A program made the translations under genes and the position numbers. From an uncultured Lachnospiraceae bacterium (GTDB lineage Bacteria > Bacillota > Clostridia > Lachnospirales > Lachnospiraceae), in NCBI GenBank assembly GCA_947626945.1, contig CANQUC010000009.1, positions 1 through 64,000 of the forward strand: DNA of 64,000 nucleotides, in the 5' to 3' direction. A model generated the notes under the pieces. That model was given only the letters and a program-made list of their open reading frames with translations. It did no database searches and had not been told where the DNA came from. How positions within the stretch are numbered: position 1 is the stretch's first letter; every line of letters starts with the position of its first letter. Of this stretch, positions 5,801-34,332 are shown piece after piece.

Positions 5801-8800
5801 TAGTATTTTATAAGGGTTTCTATACCTGTTTTGGGTTGTTCGCTTACCGTTACGGTATCTGCACAAATGCCGCCTATAAATATGTTCTCATATATTCCGG
5901 GCTTATTGAGTACATAATATTTGATGCCGTCTACTATCCGCTCGGGGAGTTCTTTGTTCGACAATCCGAGGTTCTCCGAAACAGGTACAAGCAGGCACTG
6001 AAGCCCTGCCATTTTATCTGTTACAGGCAGCACATCATAGCAGCTTTTCCCTCTGTGGGTAAGGTCTACCCGGTAATCTATGACGTCGCCTATTTGCAGC
6101 TTGTGTGACTTTCCGCTTTCATTTCCGTTTATTGTAACTCCGTTTACCTTTCCGTCTTTGCTTATGCTGAGGTCGTAGGATACAGAGTTCTGGCCGGTAC
6201 TTTTTTCATCTTTTGAGGTATCTTTATGCTGCAATGATGCTTCATTATGATAATACACGGGACTTCCCGGCAGATAGTCATAATAATACAGATGATCTCC
6301 GTCAGGTAAATACATAAGAGAATTTTTTGTAGTAGCCTTAACGTTGTATTCTAGTTTTTTACCTGCCGAAAGCTCATATTCATCAGGATAATCCCATATG
6401 AGCTTGTATTTATCATTCATTGTGACGATATACGCAAGGGAGTCAAGGGCATCGGCAATCGTTTTATAATCGCTGCTTTCGCCTACCGTGACAGTTTTTT
6501 CGCCGGAGTAGACAACAATATTTTCTCCGCTCTTGTATATGGTTATTGATTTGTTATTTACATCCTCGTTTTCGGCAAGTCCGTCATATTTTTTATGATC
6601 TGCCTTTGTGTCGGCTGCCGAGATATTGCCTTGTGTAGTTCCGTCAAGACCCGTAACGTTACCCGTTGCAGGCGAAGTTATTACAGCATCGGTTATTTCT
6701 ATTTTAAGATATTCTCCGTCAAGCCCGTTAAAAAGTGCCTCCATATTTTCGGGCTTTATATACAACAGTTGGTTATCTTTTTTTGAAAGAGTATCTTCCA
6801 GGTTATCAAGGTTTTCATATTTAAAAGGGGATGGGTTTTCCACAGTCAGCTTAAACTCTACATCCTCACCCATGTACAGAGGCTTTGTTTCCTCTGTCAT
6901 TACCTTATTAAATGTCACTTTTGCGCTGCCCAAGTTAAAAGAGATATCTTCCGTGTCACTGGACTCCTGTTTTGCGGCAAAGTTATAGTTGGTTTCGCTT
7001 TTTATCTTGTTTGTTATATCCAACTGTTCATTTTCGATAAGGTTTTCTGCAAGGATAACCTCGTTGCCAAAAAGAAGATCTCCGCTTATATCAGATATTT
7101 CCTCATCGCTTTTTGTGTTTGCAACTCTGAAATGAATTATATATTGACCTTCGTTTTCTTCAAGACTCATATCGGTAACTGTGCCATTATTTTGGCTAAA
7201 GCGGGATATAGTACAGATAAGATACCTTTTGCCGTCTATAACCGCATAAAGAGAGCTTGAGTTTCCTTCCGATACAAAAACGGTATTATTTACATCTATA
7301 TCATTGCGCCATTTAAGCTTGGCCGGTAAGGTAAGTTCATCCGAAAAATCAACATATTTTACGAAATCGTTTCCGTATGCTTCCGATACGGTAATTCCGT
7401 CCGATGCGTAATTGATTTTATAGCGCAGATTCTTTAATGCAATTTTATCACCATCAACAGCATTAAAGCCTATGGCATTTTTATCAGCTTCGTCGATGCT
7501 TTTTGTTACCTTGAATATCTGTTCACGAGTGACCCATGTGGGTTCTATATAATTTTCAGTGACAGTTATACCTTCTTCCGGTGAATAAATACCCGGTTCT
7601 ATGACTTTCCCATTATAGTTATCTTTGACAGCATCTGAAAGCTTGACACCCCACACCTGCATTTTTCTTCCCGGCTCGGTATAATTGGGATAGCTTAGAG
7701 AAAGTTTTGGATTAATTGTATCACCTGACGCTCTGTTTTCTATCTCAAAATACCAAATATTGGGATTATCCGTAGGGTTCAGCTTATAACCTGATAATTC
7801 CGCAACACCATCGCTTTCTTTTCTTATATATATCCTGTATATTCCGTCGACATTATCGGAGATAGCAGCATCAATTACAGCGGTTTGCCCCGTATAATAC
7901 TCTGCAATCTTATCCTCGATCTGATTTGTGCTTTCCAATAACATACTAATGCCTACAGTGTCCGAATTGCCTATTGTATTATCATTTTTTGCTTCTGCAT
8001 TTTTAAATAGCTTTTCTGCAATATCGCCGACTATTTGAGTGTTTACAAACAGGTTAGCGCCAAGGTCGGCAATGCTGCCAAACAAGTTTTTGATATTCTC
8101 TGTCGTATTTTCGCCGTTTATACTTGTAAGATTTTCCGCATTGGCAAAGGCATAGTCATCTATCTTTGTTATTTGTGCCGCATCTGCAAATGTGAGCGAT
8201 TGTATGGAACTGCCTTTAAAAGCATCTTTGCCCACAGAGGTGACGGTAAGAGGAACTCCGTCACAGGTCACGTTTACAGGTATGGTCAGGTTGTCTGCAT
8301 TTCTTGCACCGTAAACAAGTTCTGCCGTATCGCCGTTCACCTTGTAAATACTGCCGTTGTCGTCTGTACAGTAAAGACCACCCTTGGTAAACGGTGCAGG
8401 CAGATTGTTGGCGATTCCTTCCTCACCGACAAGAAAACTGACATTGCCGTCAATGATAATATCGGTAATGTGACCCTGGGCAGCAGTAAGAAAATCGGTA
8501 TTTACATACGGTGGAAAACTTCCGTCATCTTTTGTTATCCTTAAAGAAAAACTGCCTGCGTTTTTAAAAACGTCTGCGGATATACGATTAAGAGAATCTG
8601 CTTTATAGATAACTTCCTCAAGGCCCGTACAGCCGGAAAAAGCCTCATCGCCCACATCTGTTACCTTGCCGCCTATAACAGCCTGCTTTAAGGATACATC
8701 GCCCTTGAACATACGGGGTGTTATTTGCGTAATGTTTGGCAAGGATTCAAAGCTGAAATTTCTAAGAGAGGAATCGCCCGAAAAATGTCCGTTTCCACTA

Positions 8801-9876
8801 AAATTGGGACCGTATGGATTTTCCATCCATATGATTTCTTTGAGGTTGGGACAGTTTACAGCCGTATCCGCTGCGTTTACATTTTCAATGGTGCCTGGCA
8901 GCTTAAGAGTACGCACACTTTTGCAGTCCCTCATTATCGTACCGTTTATATCGGTAATGTTAAGGGGAGTAAGATCCAGATCCTCCACTTTTGTATTTTG
9001 TATGATCTCGGTAATGCCTGTTATATTGTTTGTGTTCGGCATAAAAGTTACATTTTCAAGAGATGTACAGCCGTAAAACATTTTTGACAGATCGCCCGAA
9101 ATATTGCCGGGAACAGTTACGGACACAAGAGATGTACAGCCATAAAAGCCCGGATAATATCCAACCGTGCCCGTTCCGAACGAAAAACTGTCGGATGTTA
9201 TTTTGGTAAGGTCTATATCCGTCAGTTCCGTACAGTTTGCGAAAATTTCCCCGTCATTCTTTCCCAATTTTGTGAGGACAGAATTTTCCTCAAATTCTGC
9301 TTTTTTCAGTTTTGAATTTGAAAAAGCCGCATCACCGATTTCTTTCACGGTAGATGGTATTATGACTGACTCAAGACCCGAATTATAAAAAAGCCTGCTT
9401 TCGTTTTCGTTTTCTCTGCCTATATATTCAAGAGAATTGAGATTTTCAAGATTGGCTTCCTTTAAATTTGTACAACCTTCGAATACAAAATTGCCCGTTT
9501 CCTTAAGAACGTTGTTTTCTTCAAAATACACACTTCTAATAGATGTACAGTCCTTAAATGCCAAATCTCCTATCGTACTTACATTTGAGTTGACGATAAC
9601 CTTTGTGATGCTGTTTTTATACGGAGCCATTTCATCGCTTTCAATAAAGCTTTTGGGTATAGATGTACCGTTGAATGTTATGGTGTATGTACCATCCGCA
9701 TTTATGTCGAGCTTCCAACCGTTGCCCTGTGCGGCAGGTGATATGCTCATTGTATTTATAATATTGTCCTTTGCTGCCACTTCTTCAAAAGCATTGTCCG
9801 GAAAACCCGTAATGCTCGTACTTAAAACGAGAATTGCGGATAAAACTGCACTTGCAATTTTTTTTGCTTTTTTCAT
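2800..9876 (-). CDS. Giant BspA-like leucine-rich-repeat surface adhesin, main part
   Basis: This frame encodes 2358 residues of a secreted surface protein. An N-terminal signal peptide (MKKAKKIASAVLSAILVLST) is followed by BspA/LRR_5-type repeats of the form AFKDCTSIRSVYF and FEGCTNLKEANL, roughly residues 90-620. A long series of beta-sandwich repeats with DUF11/isopeptide-like character follows. Adding the two missing bases joins it to the downstream frames, giving a protein of about 2809 residues ending in LPETG. The start is the ATG with AGGGAG ten bases upstream, and a TTTACA-N17-TATAAT promoter lies at 9981-10009. The likely role is cell-wall-anchored adhesion to host, mucin or other microbes. 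The ligand cannot be read from sequence. Base composition is clearly AT-rich compared with the core genes to the right. Confidence 0.8.
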   Translation of the reverse strand: MKKAKKIASAVLSAILVLSTSITGFPDNAFEEVAAKDNIINTMSISPAAQGNGWKLDINADGTYTITFNGTSIPKSFIESDEMAPYKNSITKVIVNSNVSTIGDLAFKDCTSIRSVYFEENNVLKETGNFVFEGCTNLKEANLENLNSLEYIGRENENESRLFYNSGLESVIIPSTVKEIGDAAFSNSKLKKAEFEENSVLTKLGKNDGEIFANCTELTDIDLTKITSDSFSFGTGTVGYYPGFYGCTSLVSVTVPGNISGDLSKMFYGCTSLENVTFMPNTNNITGITEIIQNTKVEDLDLTPLNITDINGTIMRDCKSVRTLKLPGTIENVNAADTAVNCPNLKEIIWMENPYGPNFSGNGHFSGDSSLRNFSFESLPNITQITPRMFKGDVSLKQAVIGGKVTDVGDEAFSGCTGLEEVIYKADSLNRISADVFKNAGSFSLRITKDDGSFPPYVNTDFLTAAQGHITDIIIDGNVSFLVGEEGIANNLPAPFTKGGLYCTDDNGSIYKVNGDTAELVYGARNADNLTIPVNVTCDGVPLTVTSVGKDAFKGSSIQSLTFADAAQITKIDDYAFANAENLTSINGENTTENIKNLFGSIADLGANLFVNTQIVGDIAEKLFKNAEAKNDNTIGNSDTVGISMLLESTNQIEDKIAEYYTGQTAVIDAAISDNVDGIYRIYIRKESDGVAELSGYKLNPTDNPNIWYFEIENRASGDTINPKLSLSYPNYTEPGRKMQVWGVKLSDAVKDNYNGKVIEPGIYSPEEGITVTENYIEPTWVTREQIFKVTKSIDEADKNAIGFNAVDGDKIALKNLRYKINYASDGITVSEAYGNDFVKYVDFSDELTLPAKLKWRNDIDVNNTVFVSEGNSSSLYAVIDGKRYLICTISRFSQNNGTVTDMSLEENEGQYIIHFRVANTKSDEEISDISGDLLFGNEVILAENLIENEQLDITNKIKSETNYNFAAKQESSDTEDISFNLGSAKVTFNKVMTEETKPLYMGEDVEFKLTVENPSPFKYENLDNLEDTLSKKDNQLLYIKPENMEALFNGLDGEYLKIEITDAVITSPATGNVTGLDGTTQGNISAADTKADHKKYDGLAENEDVNNKSITIYKSGENIVVYSGEKTVTVGESSDYKTIADALDSLAYIVTMNDKYKLIWDYPDEYELSAGKKLEYNVKATTKNSLMYLPDGDHLYYYDYLPGSPVYYHNEASLQHKDTSKDEKSTGQNSVSYDLSISKDGKVNGVTINGNESGKSHKLQIGDVIDYRVDLTHRGKSCYDVLPVTDKMAGLQCLLVPVSENLGLSNKELPERIVDGIKYYVLNKPGIYENIFIGGICADTVTVSEQPKTGIETLIKYYIVNDPGTAPDDKEGRTVSFCYKAVCDDEYFKDVSTDSFTVNNEAWANDYPGHRIYTPIFTGGAALAYYKDIVADRGSEPRYDEIDSDDFSTISKENNTVTYRLKFENPFPPSAEDPNMPKTYLSGKDFYDALPDTGNTFHWENGVNIKVEYIFENTKLVDSSNIEITDTETVLNGSEWELTDKNPNSKVSAEKDVTDQRYMVWDENLKIEFPPQSKFYIYVTLTFAGGNGEWENYINAKGGNVLTNTLYVYKFPDRVTHSLSEPGKVLLQKGVYETGYYTRGANYITEYYRGIDRYHYTPNDPIFFKPEMTSEQKGAKNTVTYYLIIKNSGSTNLYLSDVYDILPQGFEFYALRNSATDKDGNINFDSAGNWVDTAFTVGSRRDRGINSVDINQRYIPTAPSYSNNDGMRKKMNTLVVTPSGYRTAVENNPDDWEKEAYVNGEKMKFVLTHIGYAGEETLSDGRKRIKFHFVKNGDEGFIDREGGYYDSENKEDNIGTIQIDGSSEPVPYLAPGEFTQFAYTVYTAGDNVAEEKAVNYAAMEYIDTSGNTEVDLDTETGVDVAKYNSMENNDGSRELWDNTQAQNAGFSETSPFNKAEERQWLVSGVTVEKGDIIPGITKKVTGDNDLIEKESTEKEVNWTVTSRNNGTDAMTDYVISDTLEPGFRFEGDVQYEIYGNSGPVSNEAKKDNSTLLKCGINVEAPNPNSSWAKDNGRGSDVMFHIARDTGDMNKLLISANTVHDDIGSPVTVNANYDEWTYIPNIYFYDIKNTGHENGNILAGAFVKFERKANAQGKECETLKIRFAYRVNDTTENKAAYAIPAGGYSVLKVNTVAGTEVKSGMYLNNAYIIPSQKFDESDVSQGHPIKLGDNEAAVQSTAPVTFYQGTPTSSYKEIEEIGAIPENKAASNDENNNCILVSDKSSKIRYTLNIKNSNEKDINQLVVIDNLPQKDNPVMAANGADGNTLRDELKRYSEFKVSLASDPDFKIEIISEAGTKKN
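2806..2812 (-). other. A AAA AAG slippery heptamer at the first adhesin frame break
   Basis: On the coding (minus) strand the zero frame reads ACA AAA AAG AAT TGA. The A AAA AAG heptamer is the same class as the programmed -1 site of E. coli dnaX, and a zero-frame stop follows one sense codon later. A -1 slip, or one extra A in the run, restores the frame GTKKELNNTEYEV. Only a weak GAAGT/ACTTC stem is visible downstream, so a simple 1-nt deletion in the A run is at least as likely. Confidence 0.5.
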
Positions 9877-12094: not shown

Positions 12095-12180
12095 TGTATT
12101 TATAATGTATTCATATATGAAATTTTTACAAATACATTGCGGTGCCATTGAGACACCGCAATCAGTGAATGAATCTAGTG

Positions 12181-12332
12181 TGAAAAACCATACGGATGTG
12201 CTGATTGTTTCACAAAACGAAGTCCCTTCGTTTGGCTATTTGTGCTGGAGCGTCGCAAATAGCTCTGATGGCAGACGCGAACTGGAGGTTCGCGTCGCCC
12301 CGTCGCGTAAACGCTCCGGAATGGGGATTATT
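12181..12332 (+). promoter_or_regulatory. Structured leader element, copy 1 (candidate cis-regulatory RNA)
   Basis: First of two related elements. GGCTATTTG (12234-12242) pairs with CAAATAGCT (12256-12264). The loop strand CTGGAGCGT (12245-12253) can pair with ACGCTCCGG (12311-12319), making a pseudoknot. A 9-bp hairpin GACGCGAAC/GTTCGCGTC (12274-12296) and an AAACGAA/TTCGTTT hairpin fill the variable parts. The pseudoknot's 3' strand ends a few bases before the purine-rich ribosome site and the TTG start at 12333. I know no matching riboswitch class. Confidence 0.55.
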
Positions 12333-13103
12333 TTGAAAACACGATATGATAAAAGGACAATGTTTCCCGGTGTTATGTTGTCCGTGATAATGGTCATAGC
12401 AATCTGTTGTATTCTTACCAGATGTGGAATGGCTCCTGTACAAAAAGAGAAAGAGGTTCTGCAGGCAGAGGTTGCAATGGGACTTGAAGCGGCGCAAAAG
12501 CTTGAAAATGTGAAAGTGGCTGACGCGGAGGCTGCCATCGCCGCTTCAGAAGAAGAATCCCGGCGCGAAACCAATGCCAGACTGCCGCTAAAGGAACGCT
12601 TTTCAGATGCGATGATCCTTGGGGATTCACAGGCTGCAGGGCTGCCGGACTATGGGCTGCTGCCCGCCTCTCAGATTGCGGCCACAGTGGGATGCAGCAT
12701 TGAAGATTCAGACATACACATCGCAACTGCTGTTGAAATGAATCCTTCTACTGTCTTTTTTACATACGGGCTAAACGATCTGGAGCGTTATGAAAATGGA
12801 ACATCGTTTGCCGGCGTTTACGCTGAAAAAATAAACACACTCAGGGCAGGTCTTCCGGATACAAAAGTCTTTGTAACTTCTATTTTTCCACCATCGGAAG
12901 CGGCAATTGAAAAAGAGCCTTTTCTGGGGAAGTATTGGGATTTTAATGAGGCTCTGCAAAATATGGCCATGGAGATGGGAATAACCTATATTGACTGCAC
13001 TGCCATTGTGGAAGAACAGTATTACCGCCCGGATGGACAGCATTTTGAACCAGAATTCTATGAAATGTGGCTCCGCCTGCTGGCAGACCGCGCGGGGATT
13101 TAG
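12333..13103 (+). CDS. Membrane-anchored SGNH/GDSL hydrolase
   Basis: A 256-residue protein with one N-terminal membrane helix (about residues 12-30), a coiled, alanine/glutamate-rich stalk (35-85) and an SGNH-hydrolase domain outside the cell. Visible family residues are the nucleophile in ILGDSQ (Ser99), Asn148 in GLNDL and the Asp234-x-x-His237 pair in DGQH. Such proteins act as acetylesterases or acetyltransferases on polysaccharides. It opens a cluster with DUF4358, MBOAT and DHHW genes, so it probably takes part in O-acetyl modification of a surface polymer. The TTG start is chosen because it sits just after a GGGGA site in the same place as the start of the next gene relative to its own leader element. 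The in-frame ATG at 12321 is possible. Confidence 0.75.
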   Translation: MKTRYDKRTMFPGVMLSVIMVIAICCILTRCGMAPVQKEKEVLQAEVAMGLEAAQKLENVKVADAEAAIAASEEESRRETNARLPLKERFSDAMILGDSQAAGLPDYGLLPASQIAATVGCSIEDSDIHIATAVEMNPSTVFFTYGLNDLERYENGTSFAGVYAEKINTLRAGLPDTKVFVTSIFPPSEAAIEKEPFLGKYWDFNEALQNMAMEMGITYIDCTAIVEEQYYRPDGQHFEPEFYEMWLRLLADRAGI

Positions 13104-13117
13104 AGAAACCTGGTTTG

Positions 13118-13253
13118 AAAAATCACACTATGTGCTGATCTTTCAGACGGCTATTTGTGCCGGGCGTTCCAAATAGCCCTGACGGCAGACGGGAAGTGGC
13201 ATTTGCGAATTTCTCGCCGCCCGTCGCGTAAACGCTCCGGAATGGAGATTTGT
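13118..13253 (+). promoter_or_regulatory. Structured intercistronic element, copy 2 (candidate cis-regulatory RNA)
   Basis: Diverged second copy of the element at 12181-12332. It shares the ATGTGCTGAT block, GGCTATTTG/CAAATAGCC (13149-13157 with 13170-13178), CTGACGGCAGACG and CGTCGCGTAAACGCTCCGG. CGGGCGT in the loop (13161-13167) can pair with ACGCTCCG (13232-13239), with one bulged base. The middle hairpin differs in sequence (GACGGG/CCCGTC) but keeps a stem. It ends with GGAG (13244-13247) and the ATG at 13254. Confidence 0.55.
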
Positions 13254-13730
13254 ATGGAAAGAAACCTGATATGGATAAAGCCCTTTTTGCTTGTGTGCAT
13301 TGCAGGATTTATGATCTCGATGTTTCTGGCAGGACAATCCGACAGCAAAACCGGCATTTCTCAAATGGAAGCCGCGCTTATGGACAGCGGCGATCTGGAC
13401 GAAATGCAGAAATCAGACAATCTTACCGTAAAGAAGATCTTTGGATTAAACGCGGCAGAATATGATGGAATCCTCTTTTATAAAGGCAGCGGCATTATGG
13501 ACGTCTGCGAGCTTCTGGTTGTGAAGCTGAAAGACAACGATCAGGCCGATGACGTTGAACAGGCCATCCGGGACAGGCTGGACGGACAGATACAAAACTT
13601 CACCAATTACGGCACCGATCAGATTGACCTGTTAAACTCCTCTGAAATAAAAATTGTAGGCAACTATTGTTTTTACGCCGTTTCACAAAAGGCATCCCGG
13701 CTTGCGAAAATATTTTCAGAGCATTTGTAA
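13254..13730 (+). CDS. DUF4358 extracytoplasmic protein
   Basis: A 158-residue protein with an N-terminal membrane helix (FLLVCIAGFMISMFLAG) and a DUF4358 domain. The domain shows the usual blocks LNAAEYDGILFYKG, CELLVVKLKD and EQAIRDRLDGQIQNF. DUF4358 proteins are small exported proteins of Clostridia whose genes lie beside MBOAT and DHHW genes. Their biochemical role is unknown. The ATG at 13254 follows GGAG and ends structured element copy 2. The MBOAT gene begins 35 bases downstream, so the genes are co-transcribed. Confidence 0.8.
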   Translation: MERNLIWIKPFLLVCIAGFMISMFLAGQSDSKTGISQMEAALMDSGDLDEMQKSDNLTVKKIFGLNAAEYDGILFYKGSGIMDVCELLVVKLKDNDQADDVEQAIRDRLDGQIQNFTNYGTDQIDLLNSSEIKIVGNYCFYAVSQKASRLAKIFSEHL

Positions 13731-13765
13731 TCAGGCATTGCCACCCCTTAAAGGAGCCTCAGGAT

Positions 13766-15172
13766 ATGGTATTTAGCAGTCTTGTTTTTTTGTTTGCGTT
13801 TCTGCCGGTTACGCTGGCGGTGTATTATCTGGCGCCGGGCCGGATAAAAAATCTGATTCTTTTACTGGCCAGCCTGATTTTCTATGCCTGGGGCGAACCG
13901 GTTTACGTCATTTTGATGATGCTCAGTATTCTGTTTAATTATTTTATGGGTCGTGATATTGACTTCAACAGGGAAGATAAAAACAAAAAACGGGCGAGCC
14001 TGGTGCTGGCAGTGGCAGTAAACCTGGTTATTTTAGGGTTTTTTAAATACTATGGCTTTTTCATCAATACGGTCAACGGCATACTGCATCTGCATATCCC
14101 CTGCCGGGAGCTGGCGCTGCCCATCGGTATTTCTTTTTATACCTTTCAGACGCTGTCCTATATCATAGATGTTTACCGAGACAGGGTGAACGTACAAAAA
14201 AACATTCTGCATTTTGGTCTTTACGTTTGTCTGTTCCCGCAGCTGATCGCCGGGCCCATCGTAAAATATGTGGATGTGGCCGACCAGATCGAACAACGCT
14301 CTATGAATCTGAATAAGTTTGGTTCCGGCATGGTGTATTTTGTCAGGGGCCTGGGAAAGAAGGTCCTGCTGGCAAACAATATAGGACTTCTCTATGACGC
14401 GGTGGCCGGTATGGAGCTTTCCGGGATTTCCGTCCTGACGGCCTGGCTGGGCGCCGCCGCCTACACATTCCAGATCTATTTTGACTTCAGCGGATATTCA
14501 GATATGGCCGTGGGCCTGGGGAAAATGCTGGGTTTTCACTTTTTCAAAAACTTTGACTATCCCTACAGATCCAAAAGCATTACGGAATTTTGGAGACGCT
14601 GGCATATTTCCCTCAGCACCTGGTTCAGAGATTATCTGTATATCCCCCTTGGCGGGAACCGGGTCCGTGTGGAGAGACACATCTTCAACATTATGGTGGT
14701 CTGGCTTCTCACCGGCCTCTGGCATGGCGCAAGCTGGAACTTTGTTGTATGGGGTCTGTATTACGGGACGCTCCTGTTGATCGAAAAATACATTACCGGC
14801 AGGTGGATCAAACAGCTGCCGGATGTTTTGCAGCATGTGATAACCATGGTAATTGTAATGATTGGCTGGGTATTTTTCTTCAGTCCGGATCTTAGCTATG
14901 CTGTCAGCTATATCGGCCATATGTTTGGGGTTGGCAGCGCAGGCATCGCAGGGCGGGACGCGGTGTATTACCTGCTTACAAACGCCGTGCTGCTGCTGAT
15001 ATGTGCCGTCGGTTCGACGCCATATGTGCACCAGATATTTTACGCGCTGATGTTAAATCCGAAAAAGAAGCATATTTATAGCGCGGTGGCCGTCTACGCG
15101 GTTATTTTTCTGATTTCAGTTTCTTATCTTGTCAGCGCGACGTATAATCCGTTTTTATATTTCAGGTTTTAG
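13766..15172 (+). CDS. MBOAT-family membrane O-acyltransferase (AlgI/DltB-like)
   Basis: A 468-residue polytopic membrane protein with about ten or eleven helices. It belongs to the membrane-bound O-acyltransferase family that moves acetyl groups across the membrane to polysaccharides. The conserved catalytic histidine is His320 in GLWHGASWNF. A second family histidine (His280) lies in WRRWHISLSTWF. The ATG at 13766 follows AAGGAG and starts with the family-typical MVFSSLVFLFAFLP. The partner acetyltransferase is probably the DHHW protein encoded next, as AlgI works with AlgJ/AlgX. Confidence 0.92.
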   Translation: MVFSSLVFLFAFLPVTLAVYYLAPGRIKNLILLLASLIFYAWGEPVYVILMMLSILFNYFMGRDIDFNREDKNKKRASLVLAVAVNLVILGFFKYYGFFINTVNGILHLHIPCRELALPIGISFYTFQTLSYIIDVYRDRVNVQKNILHFGLYVCLFPQLIAGPIVKYVDVADQIEQRSMNLNKFGSGMVYFVRGLGKKVLLANNIGLLYDAVAGMELSGISVLTAWLGAAAYTFQIYFDFSGYSDMAVGLGKMLGFHFFKNFDYPYRSKSITEFWRRWHISLSTWFRDYLYIPLGGNRVRVERHIFNIMVVWLLTGLWHGASWNFVVWGLYYGTLLLIEKYITGRWIKQLPDVLQHVITMVIVMIGWVFFFSPDLSYAVSYIGHMFGVGSAGIAGRDAVYYLLTNAVLLLICAVGSTPYVHQIFYALMLNPKKKHIYSAVAVYAVIFLISVSYLVSATYNPFLYFRF

Positions 15173-15229
15173 AGCGGAAACTTTTCCATATTTTCCCACA
15201 AATCAGCGCGCAAAGAAGATGAGGCTCAC

Positions 15230-16357
15230 ATGAGTAGAAATACACCAGACAAAAAAGGAATGACATCCACAGTACGAAGGCTGGCGGCAAGGCTGCATCA
15301 GTGTACGGCGCTGGTCATGCTGTGTATAATCGCATTGCTGACCGCGGCAAATGTGCTTGCTGAAGACAGGAAAATGTCAGAAAAGGAAAACAGAAATCTT
15401 GCGGCGGTTCCGGAGGTGTCTTCCGATAAGATTGTCAGCGGACAGTTTATGGAAGACTTTGAAATGTATCTGTCCGACCAGTTTGTGTGCAGGGATCTTT
15501 GGGTATCCGCGAAAACATTCCTGGATTCCCTGACTGGAAAAAACTATGCCAACGGCGTATATAAAGGAAAAGACGGCTATCTCATAGAGGACGCGGCGGC
15601 GCCTTTGGAGGAACAGCTTCAGGACAATATCGCCGCCATCAACGCGCTGGCTAACAGCGGCGACGCAGCCGTGTATACCATGATCGTGCCCAACGCGGTT
15701 TCCATCCTGTCAGACAAATTACCGGCCTTTGCGCCTGTGCGTTCACAGGAACAGGATCTTGCTTCTTTTCGAAGCAGGCTGTCGGTCAATGTTCATGATA
15801 TCAATATAGAAAAAGTCCTCTCCGCTCACAGGGATGAAGATATTTATTACCGGACAGATCATCACTGGACGACAACGGGCGCATATTATGCTTTTACAGA
15901 GGCGGCAGCCTCTCTGGGGCTGGATGCTGAGCAGATCTCATATAATATTTACAAAGTCAGCAATGACTTTAAGGGCACCATGGCTTCCGCCAGCGGTTAT
16001 GCCTGCAAACCGGATACCATTGAGGTCTATGTGCCGGAAACTTCATCGGTTCAGTATGTGATCGAATATGTGGAGGAGCAGAAAAAGAGCGCGTCAGCAT
16101 ACCAGTCGGCACAACTGAAGACACATGACAAATATACTTTTTTCCTTGGAGGAAATTCTCCGCTCCTGAGAATCAAAACGACCAACGAAGACGGCGGACG
16201 TCTGCTGCTGGTAAAGGATTCCTATGCAAACTGCTTCCTGCCCTTTTTAATTCCCTATTACAAGGAAATCGTAGTTGTGGATCCCAGATATTATTATGAA
16301 GACATCTTTACCGAAATAGAAAACGAAGAGATCACGGAGATCCTGTTTTTTATATAA
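15230..16357 (+). CDS. DHHW-family SGNH protein (AlgJ/AlgX-like acetyltransferase)
   Basis: A 375-residue extracytoplasmic protein with one N-terminal membrane helix (about 27-44). It carries the signature TDHHW (Asp210-His211-His212-Trp213) followed by TTTGAYYAF, which defines the DHHW/AlgX-like SGNH hydrolase fold. A KDSYANCF block near residue 325 supplies the probable nucleophile serine. Members accept acetyl groups from an MBOAT partner and place them on a polysaccharide. It is the last gene of the operon; a small stem followed by TTTTATT lies near 16488-16511. The start ATG has a GAGG site upstream. Confidence 0.88.
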   Translation: MSRNTPDKKGMTSTVRRLAARLHQCTALVMLCIIALLTAANVLAEDRKMSEKENRNLAAVPEVSSDKIVSGQFMEDFEMYLSDQFVCRDLWVSAKTFLDSLTGKNYANGVYKGKDGYLIEDAAAPLEEQLQDNIAAINALANSGDAAVYTMIVPNAVSILSDKLPAFAPVRSQEQDLASFRSRLSVNVHDINIEKVLSAHRDEDIYYRTDHHWTTTGAYYAFTEAAASLGLDAEQISYNIYKVSNDFKGTMASASGYACKPDTIEVYVPETSSVQYVIEYVEEQKKSASAYQSAQLKTHDKYTFFLGGNSPLLRIKTTNEDGGRLLLVKDSYANCFLPFLIPYYKEIVVVDPRYYYEDIFTEIENEEITEILFFI

Positions 16358-26909: not shown

Positions 26910-28034
26910 ATGGAACGGTATTTTGGAGAACACACGCCAAAGCTTGGATTCGGCCTGATGAGACTTCCGAAAAAAGAGGGCAGAATCGATCTGGAACAGA
27001 CAAAGAAAATGGTAGATCTGTTTATGGAAGCGGGACAGACTTATTTTGACACGGCTTTTGTATACGATGACGGAGAGTCGGAAAAAGCAGCCAGAAAAGC
27101 CCTGGTGGAGCGGTATCCCAGGGAAAGCTATACTTTGGCCACAAAGCTCTGCGCCTGGGTCAAAGGCGGAAATGAGCAGTCCGCAAAGCAGCAGTTTTTC
27201 ACAAGCCTGGAGCGCACCGGCGCGGGGTACTTTGACTATTATCTGCTGCATGCCCTGCAGGCGGGAAACTACAAACTGTATGACGACTATGGGATCTGGG
27301 ACTTTGTAAAGGAACAGAAAGCAAAAGGCCTGATCCGGCACTGGGGATTTTCTTTCCATGCCACGCCGGATATTCTGGAAGAGCTTCTGACCGATCACCC
27401 CGACGCGGAATTTGTTCAGCTGCAGTTAAACTACGCGGACTGGGAAAATCCAAAGGTCACCGCAAGAGAAAATTACGAGGTGGCGAGAAAGCACGGCAAA
27501 TCCATTGTGGTCATGGAACCTGTAAAGGGAGGATCGCTGGCCGATCCGCCCAAAGAGGTGCGGGAGATCTTTCAAAAAACGGATCCAAATGCCTCATGCG
27601 CTTCCTGGGCCATCCGCTATGCGGCGTCGCTGGAGGGGATCATCACCGTTCTTTCCGGGATGTCCAATGTGGAGCAGATGATGGATAACCTTTCTTATAT
27701 GAAAGCCTTTAAGCCCTTAAATCAGCAGGAACAAAAGGCCATTCACAGGGCTCAGGAGATCATCAGCGGCAGCAGCGCCATTCCCTGCACGGCCTGTCAC
27801 TACTGTACGGCGGGATGCCCCGGGCAGATCCCCATTCCGGAAATCTTTGCCGCAAGAAACCGGCAGCTGATCTGGGGTCAGCTGGAGGAAGGCAAAAAGG
27901 CATATGAACAGGCAATAGAAGGCGCGGGAGCAGCTTCGGACTGCGTTGCGTGCGGACAGTGTGAAAGCGCGTGTCCCCAGCAGATCCCCGTGATCGAGAA
28001 ACTGCGGGAGTGCGGCGAAGCGTTTGGAAGATAA
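26910..28034 (+). CDS. Aldo/keto reductase with C-terminal 4Fe-4S ferredoxin domain
   Basis: A 374-residue fusion enzyme. The N-terminal TIM barrel is aldo/keto reductase: GFGLMRLPKK opens it, and the tetrad residues lie in TYFDTAFVY (Asp, Tyr), ATKLC (Lys) and YYLLHAL (His). The C-terminal 90 residues hold two ferredoxin-type clusters with spacing CxxCxxCxxxCP: one in CTACHYCTAGCP and one in CVACGQCESACP. This architecture is common in strict anaerobes, where electrons probably come from ferredoxin. The substrate is unknown. The start ATG has GGAGG nearby. The ibrA-like gene begins 24 bases downstream, so it may be the first gene of that operon. Confidence 0.9.
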   Translation: MERYFGEHTPKLGFGLMRLPKKEGRIDLEQTKKMVDLFMEAGQTYFDTAFVYDDGESEKAARKALVERYPRESYTLATKLCAWVKGGNEQSAKQQFFTSLERTGAGYFDYYLLHALQAGNYKLYDDYGIWDFVKEQKAKGLIRHWGFSFHATPDILEELLTDHPDAEFVQLQLNYADWENPKVTARENYEVARKHGKSIVVMEPVKGGSLADPPKEVREIFQKTDPNASCASWAIRYAASLEGIITVLSGMSNVEQMMDNLSYMKAFKPLNQQEQKAIHRAQEIISGSSAIPCTACHYCTAGCPGQIPIPEIFAARNRQLIWGQLEEGKKAYEQAIEGAGAASDCVACGQCESACPQQIPVIEKLRECGEAFGR

Positions 28035-28057: not shown

Positions 28058-29389
28058 ATGAAAAGAGAATATCTGGAACAAACTGTTTATGAAGCGCTGC
28101 AGGAGCGGCTGCGTCTGATCTTCCGGGAATTTGACAATATTTATGTGTCTTTTTCCGGCGGAAAAGACAGCGGCCTGCTGCTGAACCTGACGCTGGATTT
28201 TCAGAAAAAATACTATCCGGACAAAAAGATCGGGGTGTTTCATCAGGATTTTGAGGCCCAGTATACTGTTACGACAGAGTATGTGGAGCGGACCTTTGAG
28301 CGGATCAGAGAGCAGACGGAGCCCTACTGGGTCTGCCTGCCCATGGCCACCAGAACGGCGGTCAGCAGTTATGAGATGTACTGGTATCCCTGGGACGACG
28401 AAAAGGAAGACTGCTGGGTGCGGCCTATGCCCAAAGGGGAGTATGTGATCAACCTGGAAAACAACCCCATTACCACTTACCGGTACAAAATGCACCAGGA
28501 GGATCTGGCAAAGCAGTTTGGCCGCTGGTACCGGAAAAGTCATGACAACAAAAAGACTGTCTGTCTTCTTGGCATACGGGCCAGCGAGTCTCTTCAGCGG
28601 TACAGCGGATTCCTCAACAGAAAATACAGCTATGACGGACAGTGCTGGATCAGCAGGATGTTTAAGGACGTATGGTCCGCGTCTCCTCTTTACGACTGGA
28701 CATCCCAGGATGTATGGCATGCCAACTATCTGTTTGGCTATGACTACAATCATCTGTATGACCTGTATTATATGGCGGGCCTGAAGGTATCCCAGATGCG
28801 GGTGGCCTCTCCTTTCAACGATTACTCCAAGGATTCCCTGAATCTGTACCGGGTCATTGATCCGGGCGTCTGGGTAAAGCTGGTGGGCAGAGTAAGAGGC
28901 GCCAATTTTGCCAGCCTTTACGGGCGCACAAAGGCAATGGGATACAGGAATGTCTCTCTGCCAAAGGGACATACCTGGAAATCCTATACGCTGTTTTTGC
29001 TGGATACGCTGCCCGCCCGTCTGCGGAATAATTACGCCAAAAAATTCAATGCCTCCATGAAGTTCTGGCACAATACCGGCGGCGGGCTGGACGAGGATAC
29101 CATCCGGGAGCTTCAGGAGCACGGCTATCACATCCGCCGCAACGGCGTTTCCAACTATACCCTGAACAAAAAGTCCAGGGTGATATTTGTGGGAAAGATC
29201 CCGGACGACACGGACGACATCAGATCATCCAAGGATATTCCAAGCTGGAAACGAATGTGCTACTGCATTTTGAAAAACGACCATAACTGCAGATTCATGG
29301 GGTTTGGCCTTACCAGAGAGCAGCAGCGGCGCGTGGACGCCATCCGCAGCAAATACAAAGGTCTGGAGGATATGGAATATGGAGTTTAA
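28058..29389 (+). CDS. ibrA: IbrA-like PAPS-reductase-family protein (DUF3440)
   Basis: A 443-residue protein. The N-terminal PP-loop ATPase domain has YVSFSGGKDSGLLLNL, the SGGKDS motif of the PAPS reductase/adenylyl-transfer family. A downstream GIRASESLQRY block also matches the family. The C-terminal part is DUF3440-like and cysteine-poor, so true sulfate reduction is doubtful. This pairs with the ParB-like protein encoded next, overlapping by 11 bases, just as E. coli IbrA pairs with IbrB, which activate eib surface-protein genes. PAPS-reductase/ParB pairs also occur on phages and genomic islands. Start: ATG with GAGG seven bases upstream. Confidence 0.82.
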   Translation: MKREYLEQTVYEALQERLRLIFREFDNIYVSFSGGKDSGLLLNLTLDFQKKYYPDKKIGVFHQDFEAQYTVTTEYVERTFERIREQTEPYWVCLPMATRTAVSSYEMYWYPWDDEKEDCWVRPMPKGEYVINLENNPITTYRYKMHQEDLAKQFGRWYRKSHDNKKTVCLLGIRASESLQRYSGFLNRKYSYDGQCWISRMFKDVWSASPLYDWTSQDVWHANYLFGYDYNHLYDLYYMAGLKVSQMRVASPFNDYSKDSLNLYRVIDPGVWVKLVGRVRGANFASLYGRTKAMGYRNVSLPKGHTWKSYTLFLLDTLPARLRNNYAKKFNASMKFWHNTGGGLDEDTIRELQEHGYHIRRNGVSNYTLNKKSRVIFVGKIPDDTDDIRSSKDIPSWKRMCYCILKNDHNCRFMGFGLTREQQRRVDAIRSKYKGLEDMEYGV

Positions 29390-29915
29390 AAGTCCGGTCT
29401 ATCATGTGATCTCTGTGCCCATAGAAAAGGTGGAGCCCAATACATACAATCCCAATACTGTGGCGCCGCCGGAAATGGAACTGCTGTATCAGAGCATCAA
29501 GGCAGACGGATACACCATGCCCATTGTATGTTATTACGACAAAACCCAGGATAAATATGTGATCGTGGACGGGTTTCACCGTTACCGGGTCATGCTGGAG
29601 CATGAGGATATTTATGAGCGGGAAAAGGGAATGCTGCCGGTGTCGGTGATCAATAAGGCGCTGGATCAGCGGATGGCCAGCACCATCCGCCACAACCGGG
29701 CCCGGGGCAGCCATGATGTGGATCTGATGAGCAATATTGTCCGGGAGCTTCACGAGCTTGGCCGGTCAGACGCCTGGATCTCAAAGCATCTTGGCATGGA
29801 TCGGGACGAGATCCTGCGGCTGAAGCAGATCACAGGATTGGCGGCTCTGTTTAAGGACGTGCAGTTTGGAAAGGCATGGCAGCCCGCCAGGGAAGAAGAA
29901 ACAGAGGAACTGTAA
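29379..29915 (+). CDS. ibrB: IbrB-like ParB/Srx-domain protein
   Basis: A 178-residue protein with a ParB/sulfiredoxin-like nuclease domain. YHVISVPIEKVEPNTYNPN begins it and VDGFHRYRVMLEHE carries the GxHRxxA-like motif with His and Arg. A helix-turn-helix-like stretch follows (SKHLGMDRDEILRLKQITG). It matches IbrB, partner of the DUF3440 protein encoded by the overlapping upstream gene. The ATG at 29379 lies nine bases after GGAGG; an upstream in-frame start at 29304 lies wholly inside ibrA and is less likely. The GH5 gene follows one base after its stop. Confidence 0.82.
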   Translation: MEFKSPVYHVISVPIEKVEPNTYNPNTVAPPEMELLYQSIKADGYTMPIVCYYDKTQDKYVIVDGFHRYRVMLEHEDIYEREKGMLPVSVINKALDQRMASTIRHNRARGSHDVDLMSNIVRELHELGRSDAWISKHLGMDRDEILRLKQITGLAALFKDVQFGKAWQPAREEETEEL

Positions 29916-29916
29916 G

Positions 29917-31500
29917 ATGGAGAAGAACAGAAAAAAGAAACCCTGCAAAAGAGTCTGGCGGCTTTTTTTGCTGCTGATCATCGTAATGGCGGCAGCGCTG
30001 CTGCAGGGATGTCAGAAAACAAAAGAGAAAACAGAACAGAACACAGAGCAGGCGCCTGCAAAGACGGCTGAGAAAAGTGAGCCGGCAAAAACCGCGGAGG
30101 CAAAAAAAACAGATCCCGCCGGGAACCCGGATGAGACGGAAGCCGCCCCGTCGGACGGGCAGGAAAGAAAAGCGGCGCCCTCTGTATGCGGCAGGCTTCA
30201 TGTGGAGGGCACAAAGCTGGTGGATGAAAAGGGTCAGCCGGTGCAGCTGAGAGGGATCAGCACTCACGGACTGTCCTGGTTTCCCCAGTATGTAAACCAG
30301 GAGTGCTTTGCTCAGCTGAGCGGCCAGTGGAACGCAAATGTGATCCGCCTGGCTATGTATACCGGGGAAAGTAACGGATACTGCACAGGAGGAGATCAGG
30401 CGGGACTGAAGGATCTGATCAGAAAAGGCGTGGCCTGCGCTACCGAAAACGATATGTATGTGATCATCGACTGGCATATTTTGTCTGACGGAGATCCCAA
30501 CACGCACCTGGAGGAGGCCAGGGCGTTTTTTGAGGAAATGTCCCGGGAGTATGGAAGCGCGGACAACGTTCTTTTTGAGATCTGCAACGAGCCTAACGGA
30601 GGCACCGGCTGGCAGCAGGTAAAGACCTACGCCCAGCAGGTGATCGGCGTCATCCGGGCCAACGCGCCGGACAGCGTGATCCTGGTAGGCACGCCCAACT
30701 GGTGCCAGGATGTGGATCAGGCGGCGGCAGATCCCATCAGTCAATATGACAATCTCATGTATACCCTGCATTTTTACGCGGCTACCCACAAGGAGGATCT
30801 CCGCGGCAAAATGACCGCGGCCCTTGAGGCGGGACTCCCGATTTTTGTGTCAGAATACGGGATCTGCGATGCCAGCGGAAACGGCGCCATTGATGAAGAA
30901 CAGGCAAACCTGTGGGTGGACCTGATGGATCAGTGGGGCGTCAGCTATGTGCTGTGGAACCTTTCCAACAAAAATGAATCCTCTTCCATATTAAACAGCG
31001 GATGTGAAAAAACAGGCGGATTTGCCCCGGAGGATTTGAGTCCCTGCGGGCAGTGGCTGTACCGGACGCTTACAGGACAGCGGGATTCGGCGCAAAATAC
31101 ACAGAACGGCCAGCCCCAGGCAGACGCCGGCGGCAGCGCGCCTGTGGAGACTGCGCAGAATAACGGCCCGGAGGACGCCCAGGCGGTCAGCACCTTTACC
31201 AGCAACGGCATGGAGATCACGGCGGTGCAGAAAAACAGCTGGGAATCGGAGGGGACGCCTTTTTACCAGTACGAGCTCACCCTGAAGAACAAGAGCCAAA
31301 GCGCCATGAACTCCTGGGCAGTGGAGATTCCCTTTGCCGGCACCTTTCAGGTGACAGACAGCTGGAACGGGGAATATACCCCGCAGGGAACCGTGCTGAG
31401 CATTTCTTCCGTGGATTACAACGGCGCGGTTGCGCCAAACGGATCGGTAACAGACGTGGGATTTATTGTCAGCGGCAGCAAAATCATGAATAATAAATAA
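29917..31500 (+). CDS. GH5 endoglucanase lipoprotein with CBM2-like domain
   Basis: A 527-residue lipoprotein. The signal ends in the lipobox LLQG-Cys32. A low-complexity charged linker runs to about residue 95. The glycoside hydrolase family 5 barrel (about 100-395) has RGISTHGLSWF, the acid/base Glu in ICNEPNGG, YTLHFYAATH and the nucleophile Glu in FVSEYGICD. It most resembles subfamily 2 cellulases. The last 90 residues (FTSNGMEITAVQKNSW to VTDVGFIVSG) look like a family 2 cellulose-binding module with conserved tryptophans. It should cleave beta-1,4-glucans at the cell surface. The start is the ATG one base after ibrB with GAGGA upstream. Confidence 0.88.
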   Translation: MEKNRKKKPCKRVWRLFLLLIIVMAAALLQGCQKTKEKTEQNTEQAPAKTAEKSEPAKTAEAKKTDPAGNPDETEAAPSDGQERKAAPSVCGRLHVEGTKLVDEKGQPVQLRGISTHGLSWFPQYVNQECFAQLSGQWNANVIRLAMYTGESNGYCTGGDQAGLKDLIRKGVACATENDMYVIIDWHILSDGDPNTHLEEARAFFEEMSREYGSADNVLFEICNEPNGGTGWQQVKTYAQQVIGVIRANAPDSVILVGTPNWCQDVDQAAADPISQYDNLMYTLHFYAATHKEDLRGKMTAALEAGLPIFVSEYGICDASGNGAIDEEQANLWVDLMDQWGVSYVLWNLSNKNESSSILNSGCEKTGGFAPEDLSPCGQWLYRTLTGQRDSAQNTQNGQPQADAGGSAPVETAQNNGPEDAQAVSTFTSNGMEITAVQKNSWESEGTPFYQYELTLKNKSQSAMNSWAVEIPFAGTFQVTDSWNGEYTPQGTVLSISSVDYNGAVAPNGSVTDVGFIVSGSKIMNNK

Positions 31501-31632: not shown

Positions 31633-33303
31633 GTGAAAACAGAAAAGGAAAAAAGCTTTATCCACGAACTTTGCCATATTATTGAACTGCTGAGTCCGTC
31701 TATGGATGATTTCCTTTACATTTATGATTTTGAAGAAGACTTTTACTATATTTCCAAGGCGGCGGCCAACCGGTTCTGTATTCCGGGACATACCTTTCAC
31801 GATACGGAAAAGAACTTCCAGGAATTTGTCTATCCGGCAGATTATCCGCGGCTTATGGAAGATCTGTATCTGCTGCGGGAGAAAGGCAAGAATACCCACA
31901 ACCTGATCTACCGCTGGATCTCCGTAAAGGGCGACCCCATCTGGATCAACTGCAGGGGCCAGGTGGTGCGGGAAGACGGCGCTGCCCGGTATCTGGTAGG
32001 TTGTATCAATGAGATCGGCGTCCAGCAAAAGGCCGACAACTTAAGCGGCCTGTTGGGCGATTCCAGTTTTCAGGCATTTATCGGAGATTACGCCAACCGG
32101 CGGCCTCAGGGATTTTTCCTGCGGATCGGCGTGGACGCCCTGAAGGGCATCAATGCCCGTCTGGGAGTGGAATACGGAAACCAGATTCTTCGCACCACGG
32201 CAAGAAAGATCGAGGAGGCCATTTCAGAGGACCAGCATCTGTACCGGATCATTGGCGACGAATTCCTGGTGGTGGATTTTTCCGGAGGCACTTTGGAGGA
32301 CGCTCATAACCTGTACCAGAAGCTCCGGGAAAAAATGGATCAGTACATAACGGAGAACGATTACAAAGCGGTGTTTACGCTGTCCGGGGGCGTTGTGCTG
32401 ACGCAGGATGTTTCCGAATTTCACTATTCGGAGATTATAAAGCTGACGGAGTTTGCCCTTGGAGAGGCAAAGCACCGGGGACGGAACAGGTGCTATGATT
32501 TCTGCGCGGAAGATTATCAGCAGTTCCTTGAGAAGAGAAATCTGATGGTAAAGCTGCGCCGGGCGGTCAATAACGGCATGGAAGGCTTTGAAGTGTATTA
32601 TCAGCCCATCTTCCGGGCGGACAACGGAAAGATCTACGGAGCGGAAGCGCTGATGCGGTTTTCCGACAAGGAGAAGGGAATGGTATCTCCTGTGAAATTT
32701 ATTCCCATCCTGGAGGAAAGCGGCCTGATCATTCCGGTGGGCCGGTGGCTTCTGCATCAGGCCTTTGACATGTGCAGCGCTTTCCAGAAATACGTTCCGG
32801 ATTTCCATATCAATGTGAATCTGTCTAATGTGCAGATCATGAAAAGCGATGTGGGCGGAGATATTTTAGACGCCATTCAGACCTATGGGCTGAAACCGGA
32901 AACCATTACCGTTGAGCTGACGGAAAGCGGATTTCTGGAATCGGACTACCGCTTTACCGACATGTGGCATGAAATGAAAAAAGCGGGCGTGCTGCTGGCG
33001 CTGGACGACTTTGGCACCGGCTATTCCAACTTCCGGTACATAACCGAGCTGAAGCCGGAAGTGATCAAGATCGACAGGACGTTTACCATGAAAGTCATGG
33101 AAAATGTATTTGAATACGAGCTGCTTTCCCTTTTTACAAAGATGGCCCACAATCTGAATCTGAAGATTTGTGTGGAGGGAATCGAAACAGAAGAAGAGAG
33201 GCAAAAGATCTATGATCTGGCGCCGGATTGCTTCCAGGGTTTCTATTTTGGCTATCCGTGTCCAAGAGAGCAGTTCTTTGAAAAGTTTGCCGGGCAGATA
33301 TAA
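31633..33303 (+). CDS. PAS-GGDEF-EAL c-di-GMP phosphodiesterase, GGDEF degenerate
   Basis: A 556-residue cytoplasmic signalling protein. A PAS-like N-terminal domain (about 15-135) is followed by a GGDEF domain (about 150-280) and an EAL domain (about 300-550). The active-site loop reads RIIGDEF, so the first glycine of GGDEF is replaced by isoleucine and cyclase activity is doubtful. The EAL domain keeps the key residues: EALMRF, ELTESGF, LDDFGTGYSN, KIDRTF and CVEGIET. It should therefore hydrolyse c-di-GMP, perhaps with GTP control through the degenerate domain. It has no membrane helix. The GTG start follows an AAAGGGG/GGAG region and a promoter at 31520. Confidence 0.88.
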   Translation: MKTEKEKSFIHELCHIIELLSPSMDDFLYIYDFEEDFYYISKAAANRFCIPGHTFHDTEKNFQEFVYPADYPRLMEDLYLLREKGKNTHNLIYRWISVKGDPIWINCRGQVVREDGAARYLVGCINEIGVQQKADNLSGLLGDSSFQAFIGDYANRRPQGFFLRIGVDALKGINARLGVEYGNQILRTTARKIEEAISEDQHLYRIIGDEFLVVDFSGGTLEDAHNLYQKLREKMDQYITENDYKAVFTLSGGVVLTQDVSEFHYSEIIKLTEFALGEAKHRGRNRCYDFCAEDYQQFLEKRNLMVKLRRAVNNGMEGFEVYYQPIFRADNGKIYGAEALMRFSDKEKGMVSPVKFIPILEESGLIIPVGRWLLHQAFDMCSAFQKYVPDFHINVNLSNVQIMKSDVGGDILDAIQTYGLKPETITVELTESGFLESDYRFTDMWHEMKKAGVLLALDDFGTGYSNFRYITELKPEVIKIDRTFTMKVMENVFEYELLSLFTKMAHNLNLKICVEGIETEEERQKIYDLAPDCFQGFYFGYPCPREQFFEKFAGQI

Positions 33304-33345: not shown

Positions 33346-34332
33346 ATGGCAAAATCCTATAATCAGAAGATGAAGATTCTGTATCTGCTGCGGCTGTTTA
33401 TGGAGCGCTCAGATGAAAATCATGTGCTGACCATGGGGGATCTGCTGGAAGAGCTTGCCCGCTATGGGATTTCGGCGGAGCGGAAAAGCGTTTATGATGA
33501 TCTGGAAGCCCTGCGGCTGTTTGGCCTGGACATCGTATATACCCGGAGGGAGCCGTCCGGTTATTATCTGGCGTCCCGCCGGTTTGAACTGCCGGAGCTG
33601 AAGCTTCTGGTGGACGCGGTGCAGTCCTGCAAATTTCTGACCCGAAAAAAATCAGATCAGCTGATCAAAAAGCTGGAAAGCCTTACCAGCACCTATGAGG
33701 CGGGGCAGCTGGCAAGACAGGTGTTCGTGGCCAACCGCATCAAGACCATGAACGAGACCATTTATTATAATGTAGATAAGATTCACAGCGCCATTTCGGC
33801 AAATGTCAGGATCCGGTTCCAGTATTTCCAGTGGACGGTGGAGAAGACCACCCATCTGAAAAAAGACGGGGCCTCCTACGACATCAGTCCCTGGGCGCTG
33901 ACCTGGGATGACGAAAACTATTATATGGTAGGCTATGACAGTGAAACGGACATGATCAAGCACTACCGGGTGGATAAAATGCTTTCTATCCAGCTGACGG
34001 CAAAGGAGCGGCAGGGAAAACAGGTGTTTGCGGATTTTGACCTTGCAAGTTATATTAAGAAGACCTTTGGCATGTTTGGCGGGGAAGAAAAAGAGATGGA
34101 GCTGGAATGTGAAAACCGGCTGATCGGGGTGATGATAGACCGGTTCGGCAAGGAAGCGCCCATACGGCCTGTTGACGACAGTCATTTTTCTATCCGTATC
34201 CGGGTGGCGGTCAGCGGGCCCTTTTACGGCTGGCTTTGCGGTCTGGGGCCGGGAGTGTCTGTCCGAAAGCCCCTGGAAGAGGCCCGGGCATACCGGGACT
34301 ATCTGCGGGGCCTGCTGGAAAAAACAGTCTGA
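33346..34332 (+). CDS. WYL-domain transcriptional regulator
   Basis: A 328-residue regulator. The N-terminal winged helix (about 5-65) shows TMGDLLEELARYGISAERKS followed by VYDDLEALRLFGLDI. The WYL domain (about 140-240) shows ISPWALTWDDENYYMVGYD and the following YRVDKM region. A C-terminal WCX extension follows. WYL regulators bind nucleic-acid or nucleotide ligands and often repress defence or metabolic genes. Its target is not apparent. The ATG follows AAAGGAG. It is convergent with the CYTH gene. Confidence 0.9.
   Translation: MAKSYNQKMKILYLLRLFMERSDENHVLTMGDLLEELARYGISAERKSVYDDLEALRLFGLDIVYTRREPSGYYLASRRFELPELKLLVDAVQSCKFLTRKKSDQLIKKLESLTSTYEAGQLARQVFVANRIKTMNETIYYNVDKIHSAISANVRIRFQYFQWTVEKTTHLKKDGASYDISPWALTWDDENYYMVGYDSETDMIKHYRVDKMLSIQLTAKERQGKQVFADFDLASYIKKTFGMFGGEEKEMELECENRLIGVMIDRFGKEAPIRPVDDSHFSIRIRVAVSGPFYGWLCGLGPGVSVRKPLEEARAYRDYLRGLLEKTV

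Follow-up and report, generated by a model that had tools for sequence, protein, structure and literature searches.

The window, a 64,000-nucleotide stretch of DNA from an uncultured Lachnospiraceae bacterium (contig CANQUC010000009.1, positions 1 to 64,000), carries on its forward strand an overlapping ibrA-ibrB gene pair. ibrA (28058..29389) encodes a PP-loop ATPase of 443 amino acids that resembles 3'-phosphoadenosine-5'-phosphosulfate (PAPS) reductases and ends in a DUF3440 domain. ibrB (29379..29915; ATG at 29379, stop at 29913-29915) encodes a 178-amino-acid protein of the ParB/sulfiredoxin superfamily with a helix-turn-helix (HTH)-like part. The two genes share 11 bases, with the final ibrA codons and stop lying inside ibrB. 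The combination of PAPS_reduct, DUF3440 and a PP-loop with an adjacent ParB-like partner identifies the pair as a member of the IbrA/IbrB (YbdN/YbdM) family, which is known and uncharacterised. The pair is kept as a unit while its neighbours turn over, and it recurs in viral cassettes; its predicted folds suggest an ATP-using enzyme and a DNA-binding partner.

IbrA matched the Pfam families PAPS_reduct (PF01507, E 2.7e-10) and DUF3440 (PF11922, E 7.2e-86). Its PP-loop is intact: SGGKDS is invariant in an alignment of 14 rows, and most of the PP-loop is among the 33 columns invariant across 54 rows. Four of 57 candidate IbrA ranges, which had a stop at their end, and one IbrB range were excluded from the structure-model alignments. 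The predicted model of IbrA (mean predicted local distance difference test, pLDDT, 84.1) is closest in fold to the PAPS-like domain of FAD synthase (Z 16.3), the ATP sulfurylase CysD (Z 15.4) and APS/PAPS reductases, followed by TilS, TtuA and NcsA (Z 11-13). These matches cover residues 4-273 and barely reach the C-terminal remainder. The model suggests that IbrA is a PP-loop enzyme that uses ATP. The catalytic cysteine of PAPS reductases sits in an ECG-type motif; we rejected PAPS reductase (CysH) as a name for IbrA, since the protein has no ECG and no cysteine is invariant in the 54 rows. DndC was rejected as well, the NCBIfam model TIGR03183 scoring 23.6 bits against a cut-off of 290.4.

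IbrB matched ParB_N (PF02195) barely past the cut-off (E 4.9e-6), and phrog_2159 at E 4.5e-81. The motifs DGxHR and RHNRARGxH are invariant in alignments of 11 and of 46 rows. The predicted model (pLDDT 77.6) aligned with KorB over 148 residues, HTH part included (Z 14.2), and with Noc over 146 residues (Z 10.7), Noc/ParB structures with CTP or CDP scoring about 10-11. Serine kinase (Z 9.7), sulfiredoxin (Z 9.0) and SbnI matched mainly through the nucleotide domain. The model has the N-domain and HTH part of the ParB-CTPase fold and suggests a KorB/Noc/ParB-like DNA-binding nucleoside triphosphatase (NTPase). Unlike ParB, Noc and KorB, with which it has this fold in common, IbrB has no C-terminal dimerisation part and reads DGFHR at the position of ParB's GERR. 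A ParB of a ParABS partition system was rejected by profile (TIGR00180, 24.9 bits against a cut-off of 58.45), and, unlike in ParABS, no ParA-like gene occurs among the annotated window neighbours. Members of the ParB-CTPase fold that bind ATP or GTP have been reported (PMC12704722); the main text of that survey contains no PAPS, phosphoadenosine, DUF3440, IbrB or YbdM.

A scan with one genome per species gave 513 IbrA relatives; the best 80 were retained as Lachnospiraceae loci. As ibrB follows ibrA in all 80 of them (with an identical overlap in 70), the order of the two genes is not due to chance. A same-strand gene lies within 60 bases upstream of ibrA at 4 of 78 loci, so ibrA usually starts its own unit; downstream, such a gene was present at 21 of 76. 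Clustering of all neighbours revealed no third conserved family around the pair, the next commonest (an ABC-type ATPase, judging by its letters) being present in 20 of 82 sources and scattered in position. Secretion was predicted for the products of 10 of the 55 downstream neighbours on the same strand and of 61 of the 791 other genes (p 0.019, a crude test with crude open reading frame starts and a crude hydrophobicity rule). We discounted this enrichment because one neighbourhood, with a periplasmic-adaptor-like gene, recurs in 6 loci. At seven loci (L024, L028, L033, L037, L055, L059 and L064) an endonuclease IV-like gene comes soon after ibrB, in most cases followed by a DNA-glycosylase-like gene, both names being judged from the letters.

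In the window, the gene of a probable GH5-CBM2 lipoprotein (29917..31500, +; Cellulase PF00150, E 7.7e-66; CBM_2 PF00553, E 1.4e-11) begins one base past the ibrB stop; we count it as a neighbour outside the module. Longer open reading frames with TTG starts at 29304 and 29866 are less likely than the ATG starts of ibrB and the GH5 gene, because GGAGG (29365-29369) and AGAGGA (near 29902-29907) precede the two ATGs by about 9 bases. An L-Q-G-C sequence ending the N-terminal hydrophobic stretch of the GH5 protein may be a lipobox, and the enzyme is probably active given its NEP and SEYG stretches, which we take to be the GH5 catalytic region. Judging by spacing, the pair and the GH5 gene are likely co-transcribed in this genome. 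The gene of an aldo/keto reductase with a 4Fe-4S domain (26910..28034, +; Pfam), 23 bases 5' of ibrA, is possibly co-transcribed with ibrA. A terminator scan of the region had little discriminating power (24 terminator-like sites, 12 expected). Further downstream lie the genes of a PAS-GGDEF-EAL protein (31633..33303, +) and a WYL-domain regulator (33346..34332, +). Rfam gave no match in the window, and no tRNA was found in it. Elsewhere, the window encodes a BspA-type leucine-rich-repeat protein of 2358 amino acids, likely a surface protein, in a stretch of low GC content (2800-9876, -; about 0.40 vs 0.53). It also carries GDSL lipase, MBOAT and DHHW/AlgX-like genes (12105-16357) that resemble a polysaccharide O-acetylation cluster.

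The step from ibrB to the GH5 gene is particular to the window genome. All three genomes of the genus have the pair ahead of WYL, CYTH, tig, clpP, clpX and lon, and in both other genomes the WYL-regulator gene stands directly 3' of ibrB with no GH5 gene between. One congener (G001) has a GGDEF-EAL gene upstream of ibrA and a GH5 gene about 7 kb upstream, the other (G002) neither within 14 kb around the pair; the insertion of both between ibrB and the WYL gene is found in the window genome only. Among the 80 family loci a GH5 relative occurs once, about 7 kb upstream and outside the operon (L004), and an aldo/keto reductase homologue at none (L002-L081). ibrAB stands beside none of 12 short loci of distant WYL relatives (L107-L118), which limits the WYL link to the genus. 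The GH5 gene thus seems to lie beside the pair by chance, and we rejected a functional ibrAB-GH5 operon, the adjacency being lost across genus and family. The earlier note had described the overlap, the one-base gap and the three gene products correctly, and its operon with the cellulase agrees with the spacing in this genome but not with the genus or the family. Its proposal that the pair controls surface-protein expression found no support in these neighbourhoods. The note had named unrelated neighbours in relatives as the first half of what would speak against this proposal, and differing neighbours are what the survey found. An operon-like placement next to a surface enzyme can mislead.

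The distribution of the pair is patchy. DUF3440 matches occurred in 54 of 298 sampled family genomes, about a sixth (51 above the cut-off), in 13 of 61 relatives, and in 4 of 398 genomes of a phylum-wide draw that included the window's own draft genome (G000, 2.07 Mb, Lachnospiraceae-like). The pair occupies changing genomic sites. In 25 genomes of other lineages, taken from the best 80 of the 513 matches, IbrA is 79-84% identical to that of the window, while Lon reaches 56-61% in 24 of the 25 and ValS 67-71% in 23, the remainder being partial or paralogous matches. Within the genus the corresponding identities are 82-84% for IbrA, 76-77% for Lon and 90% for ValS. With IbrA as similar between genera as within the genus while Lon falls, IbrA identity hardly tracks kinship, and on this ground the pair probably moves horizontally. 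Close IbrA copies are also present in plasmid records, at 79% identity in one from Subdoligranulum and at 72% in those from Enterococcus faecalis (235-240 kb).

In a tblastn search of 50,697 phage records, IbrA was detected in 217 and IbrB in 223. Lactobacillus phage CR28, Streptococcus phage CHPC1062 and a Listeria stretch share the gene order small protein, SNF2-like helicase, IbrA, IbrB, and Fusobacterium phage phiFN37 has IbrA, IbrB, small protein, helicase. Homology links the four helicases (32-48% identity, E 4.7e-53 or better) and, weakly, the small proteins. In Mycobacterium phage Gaia (L159) and Pseudoalteromonas phage XCL1123 (L167), an ectoine-synthase-like cupin is fused to IbrB or precedes it; this family corresponds to ectoine synthase PF06339 (E 1.4e-33; for example L252:7329-7721).

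Two scans of IMG/VR contigs yielded at least 151 loci, or 104 after removal of near-copies, and the counts that follow describe this sample. tblastn detected both genes at 101 of the 104 loci; the exceptions were an ibrB-less locus with 6 kb left, a contig ending just after ibrA, and a locus without detected ibrA. The SNF2-like helicase was present at 40 loci, directly upstream (within 200 bp) in 32 of them, and the cupin, either separating IbrA from IbrB or fused with them, at 35. The two occurred together at 2 loci, against 13.5 expected if independent (Fisher p 3.7e-7, which ignores kinship), and the cupin-type loci form nearly one clade in the tree. We examined 114 of 331 eligible neighbours (a random draw of 140, at most 2 per locus, minus 26). 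The recognisable ones nearest the pair often belong to DNA replication and recombination: replicative helicases, primases and recombination proteins recurred, as did two cytosine methyltransferases, each family with few repeats. We found neither the helicase-IbrA-IbrB nor the IbrA-cupin-IbrB cassette described in the literature searched, including the portions covered of PMC5512222, PMC4490671, PMC5874904, PMC8813620, PMC10434257 and PMC11318856, and one may have been published elsewhere.

At 55 of the 104 viral loci, a protein family of about 140 amino acids with no match in Pfam or PHROG is encoded close to ibrA/ibrB (for example L276:2269-2697, L287:715-1116). A standalone protein of about 86 amino acids that corresponds to the last third of DUF3440 occurs at 21 (for example L224:2454-2714, L331:6889-7134), so the C-terminal part of IbrA can be a separate gene. 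In phiFN37, a second ParB-like gene, a queuine tRNA-ribosyltransferase-like gene and a queuosine precursor transporter gene lie 3 kb from ibrAB (L157:10742-13051). The ribosyltransferase-like association is no pattern, being limited in the viral collection to phiFN37 and its own copies. Recoding of phage IbrA/IbrB was also discarded, the in-frame stops being an ordinary stop within an over-long tblastn range.

To compare host and viral copies we built a quick tree from 120 IbrA rows, which left out viral loci without a 380-amino-acid IbrA frame and kept 12 ungrouped rows outside the label statistics. The window and 12 Lachnospiraceae formed one group (Shimodaira-Hasegawa-like approximate likelihood-ratio test, SH-aLRT, 100), whose sister comprised 7 viral rows, 6 of them with the helicase (SH-aLRT 97 and 96). 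Proteins of this nearest branch, the phage/Listeria helicase cassette, are 42-64% (IbrA) and 55-78% (IbrB) identical to those of the window. Unlike that cassette, the window's pair has no helicase: the helicase profile matched none of the 82 host sources, the window among them, and a search of its own genome, run without a positive control, found none either. The cupin and the viral family of about 140 amino acids were likewise absent from the 82 host sources. From the tree and these absences we infer that the host pair descends from a helicase-type phage cassette and lost the helicase, phage to host being the presumed direction of transfer.

Among known systems, E. coli IbrA/IbrB and K-12 YbdN/YbdM belong to the same two families and share the gene order, the overlap and the motifs DGxHR and RHNRARGxH. 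They differ from the window's pair in sequence (identity 31-33% for IbrA, 47-50% for IbrB), in their neighbours, and in an N-terminal extension of E. coli IbrB. On an E. coli plasmid (L163:7968-10203), a PerC-family regulator gene follows ibrA-ibrB, matching a table of Shiga toxin-producing E. coli in PMC7649339, and PerC, not IbrB, might carry some of the regulatory effects credited to the island. Precedents for a ParB-like protein acting with a modification enzyme are DndB/DndC and DpdB/DpdA, as described in PMC10853773 and PMC12839542. Dnd phosphorothioation likewise joins a ParB-like protein (DndB) to a PAPS-reductase-like PP-loop enzyme (DndC). The similarity between IbrA and DndC is weak, however, and unlike Dnd the window's pair has no DndD or DndE seen beside it and IbrA has no invariant cysteine. 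Dpd 7-deazaguanine DNA modification combines a ParB-like ATPase (DpdB) with a base-modifying enzyme (DpdA; PMC12839542); its enzyme is a transglycosylase, whereas IbrA is a PP-loop protein.

Taken together, we tentatively favour reading ibrA-ibrB as a self-contained, horizontally spreading, phage-derived two-gene module without a helicase that is directed at nucleic acid and may modify DNA. A host lineage would have kept the pair from a phage cassette with an SNF2-like helicase and lost the helicase. IbrB, as a KorB/Noc-like NTPase switch, would place the pair on DNA, and IbrA would use ATP to adenylate an atom of nucleic acid or of a small substrate, leaving the DNA chemically modified; in phages, helicase or cupin would assist. 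DNA as the target and the nature of the added group are working assumptions, possible but held with reserve, and the adenylation step and the modified product are purely hypothetical. Of the two suggestions in the earlier note, DNA modification is plausibly the better one, in view of the phage and Listeria cassettes and the DNA-gene neighbours.

Several points weigh against this reading. We know of no modified nucleoside reported for any member of the family. No cysteine is invariant in IbrA (Cys93 in 50 and Cys411 in 49 of 54 rows), which disfavours a persulfide-type thiolation; FAD synthase and CysD need no persulfide to transfer or form adenylyl groups, which agrees with an IbrA that has no invariant cysteine. 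K-12 ybdN-ybdM adjoin citR, dsbG and ybdL and no DNA genes. The cassette partners are known from neighbourhood, which is no proof of function, and 31 of the 104 viral loci, some of them truncated, have neither helicase nor cupin, so the pair does not require the motor. The IbrA tree is quick, with SH-aLRT support only and an arbitrary root. Finally, the 25 high-identity genomes are a biased sample, having been drawn from the best 80 of 513 matches, and strong constraint instead of transfer is an alternative source of the high IbrA identity.

The main rival, which we consider unlikely, is a pair of small-molecule or sulfur/amino-acid enzymes, with IbrA adenylating a metabolite and IbrB acting as a SerK/SbnI-like kinase. 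The nearest folds of IbrA (FAD synthase and ATP sulfurylase) agree with such a role, as do the match of the IbrB nucleotide domain to free serine kinase (Z 9.7), the DGxHR motif, the ectoine-synthase-like partner at 35 of 104 viral loci, and the K-12 location of ybdNM, next to ybdL (methionine transaminase) and not far from dsbG. The HTH part of IbrB, which aligns with KorB and Noc as well (148 and 146 residues), fits it poorly, and so do the SNF2-like helicase at 40 of 104 loci and the early DNA-gene neighbourhood. A further hint, the joint rise of ybdN and the cys genes in a citR mutant (table in PMC9068703), may be CitR's own effect. A tRNA or other RNA modification module is very unlikely in our view. 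TilS, TtuA and NcsA, PP-loop enzymes that act on tRNA, are among the fold matches of IbrA, but FAD synthase, CysD and APS/PAPS reductases outrank them; Pfam found no RNA-binding domain, and the partner is ParB-like.

Decidedly improbable, too, is a role in co-activating the transcription of surface-protein genes, like that of E. coli IbrAB for eib. IbrB would then bind promoter DNA under modulation by IbrA, and the GH5 lipoprotein would be the target here. The window's pair belongs to the E. coli family, in which the presence of ibrB raises surface Eib as stated in PMC7649339, the IbrB model resembles the repressor KorB, and the GH5 gene is one base away. Against this, that gene is not kept beside the pair in genus or family, downstream genes vary by lineage, and the invariant catalytic-type motifs of both proteins suit enzymes more than a pure regulator. 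We give very little weight to a toxin-antitoxin or defence module: guilt-by-association led to Listeria lmo1310-lmo1309 being named as a putative toxin-antitoxin pair, but the same paper places it among the core genes of Listeria (PMC7020466), and the PADLOC models DndC and BrxP match IbrA weakly (23-28 bits) with no PADLOC match for IbrB. The pair is frequent in phages themselves, and IbrB, the would-be antitoxin, is the more conserved partner (73% identity to Lactobacillus phages, against 43-44% for IbrA).

Our preferred reading of a nucleic-acid-directed module can be carried further, to a version that we regard as somewhat unlikely. The family would then represent a widespread, undescribed phage DNA-modification chemistry, in which a PP-loop adenylating enzyme without an obligatory cysteine works with a DNA-bound NTPase of the ParB/sulfiredoxin type and with alternative accessories, either an SNF2-like motor or an ectoine-synthase-like cupin. 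Gut Lachnospiraceae would have adopted it in a form pared down to two genes, which moves from one genus to another and marks the chromosome of its host. The two cassette types and the lack of an invariant cysteine lead to testable predictions on phage and K-12 DNA. Relatives of IbrA and IbrB span E. coli K-12, Listeria, 217-223 of 50,697 phage records and Lachnospiraceae, and the phage copies are often labelled as sulfur-metabolism or partition genes.

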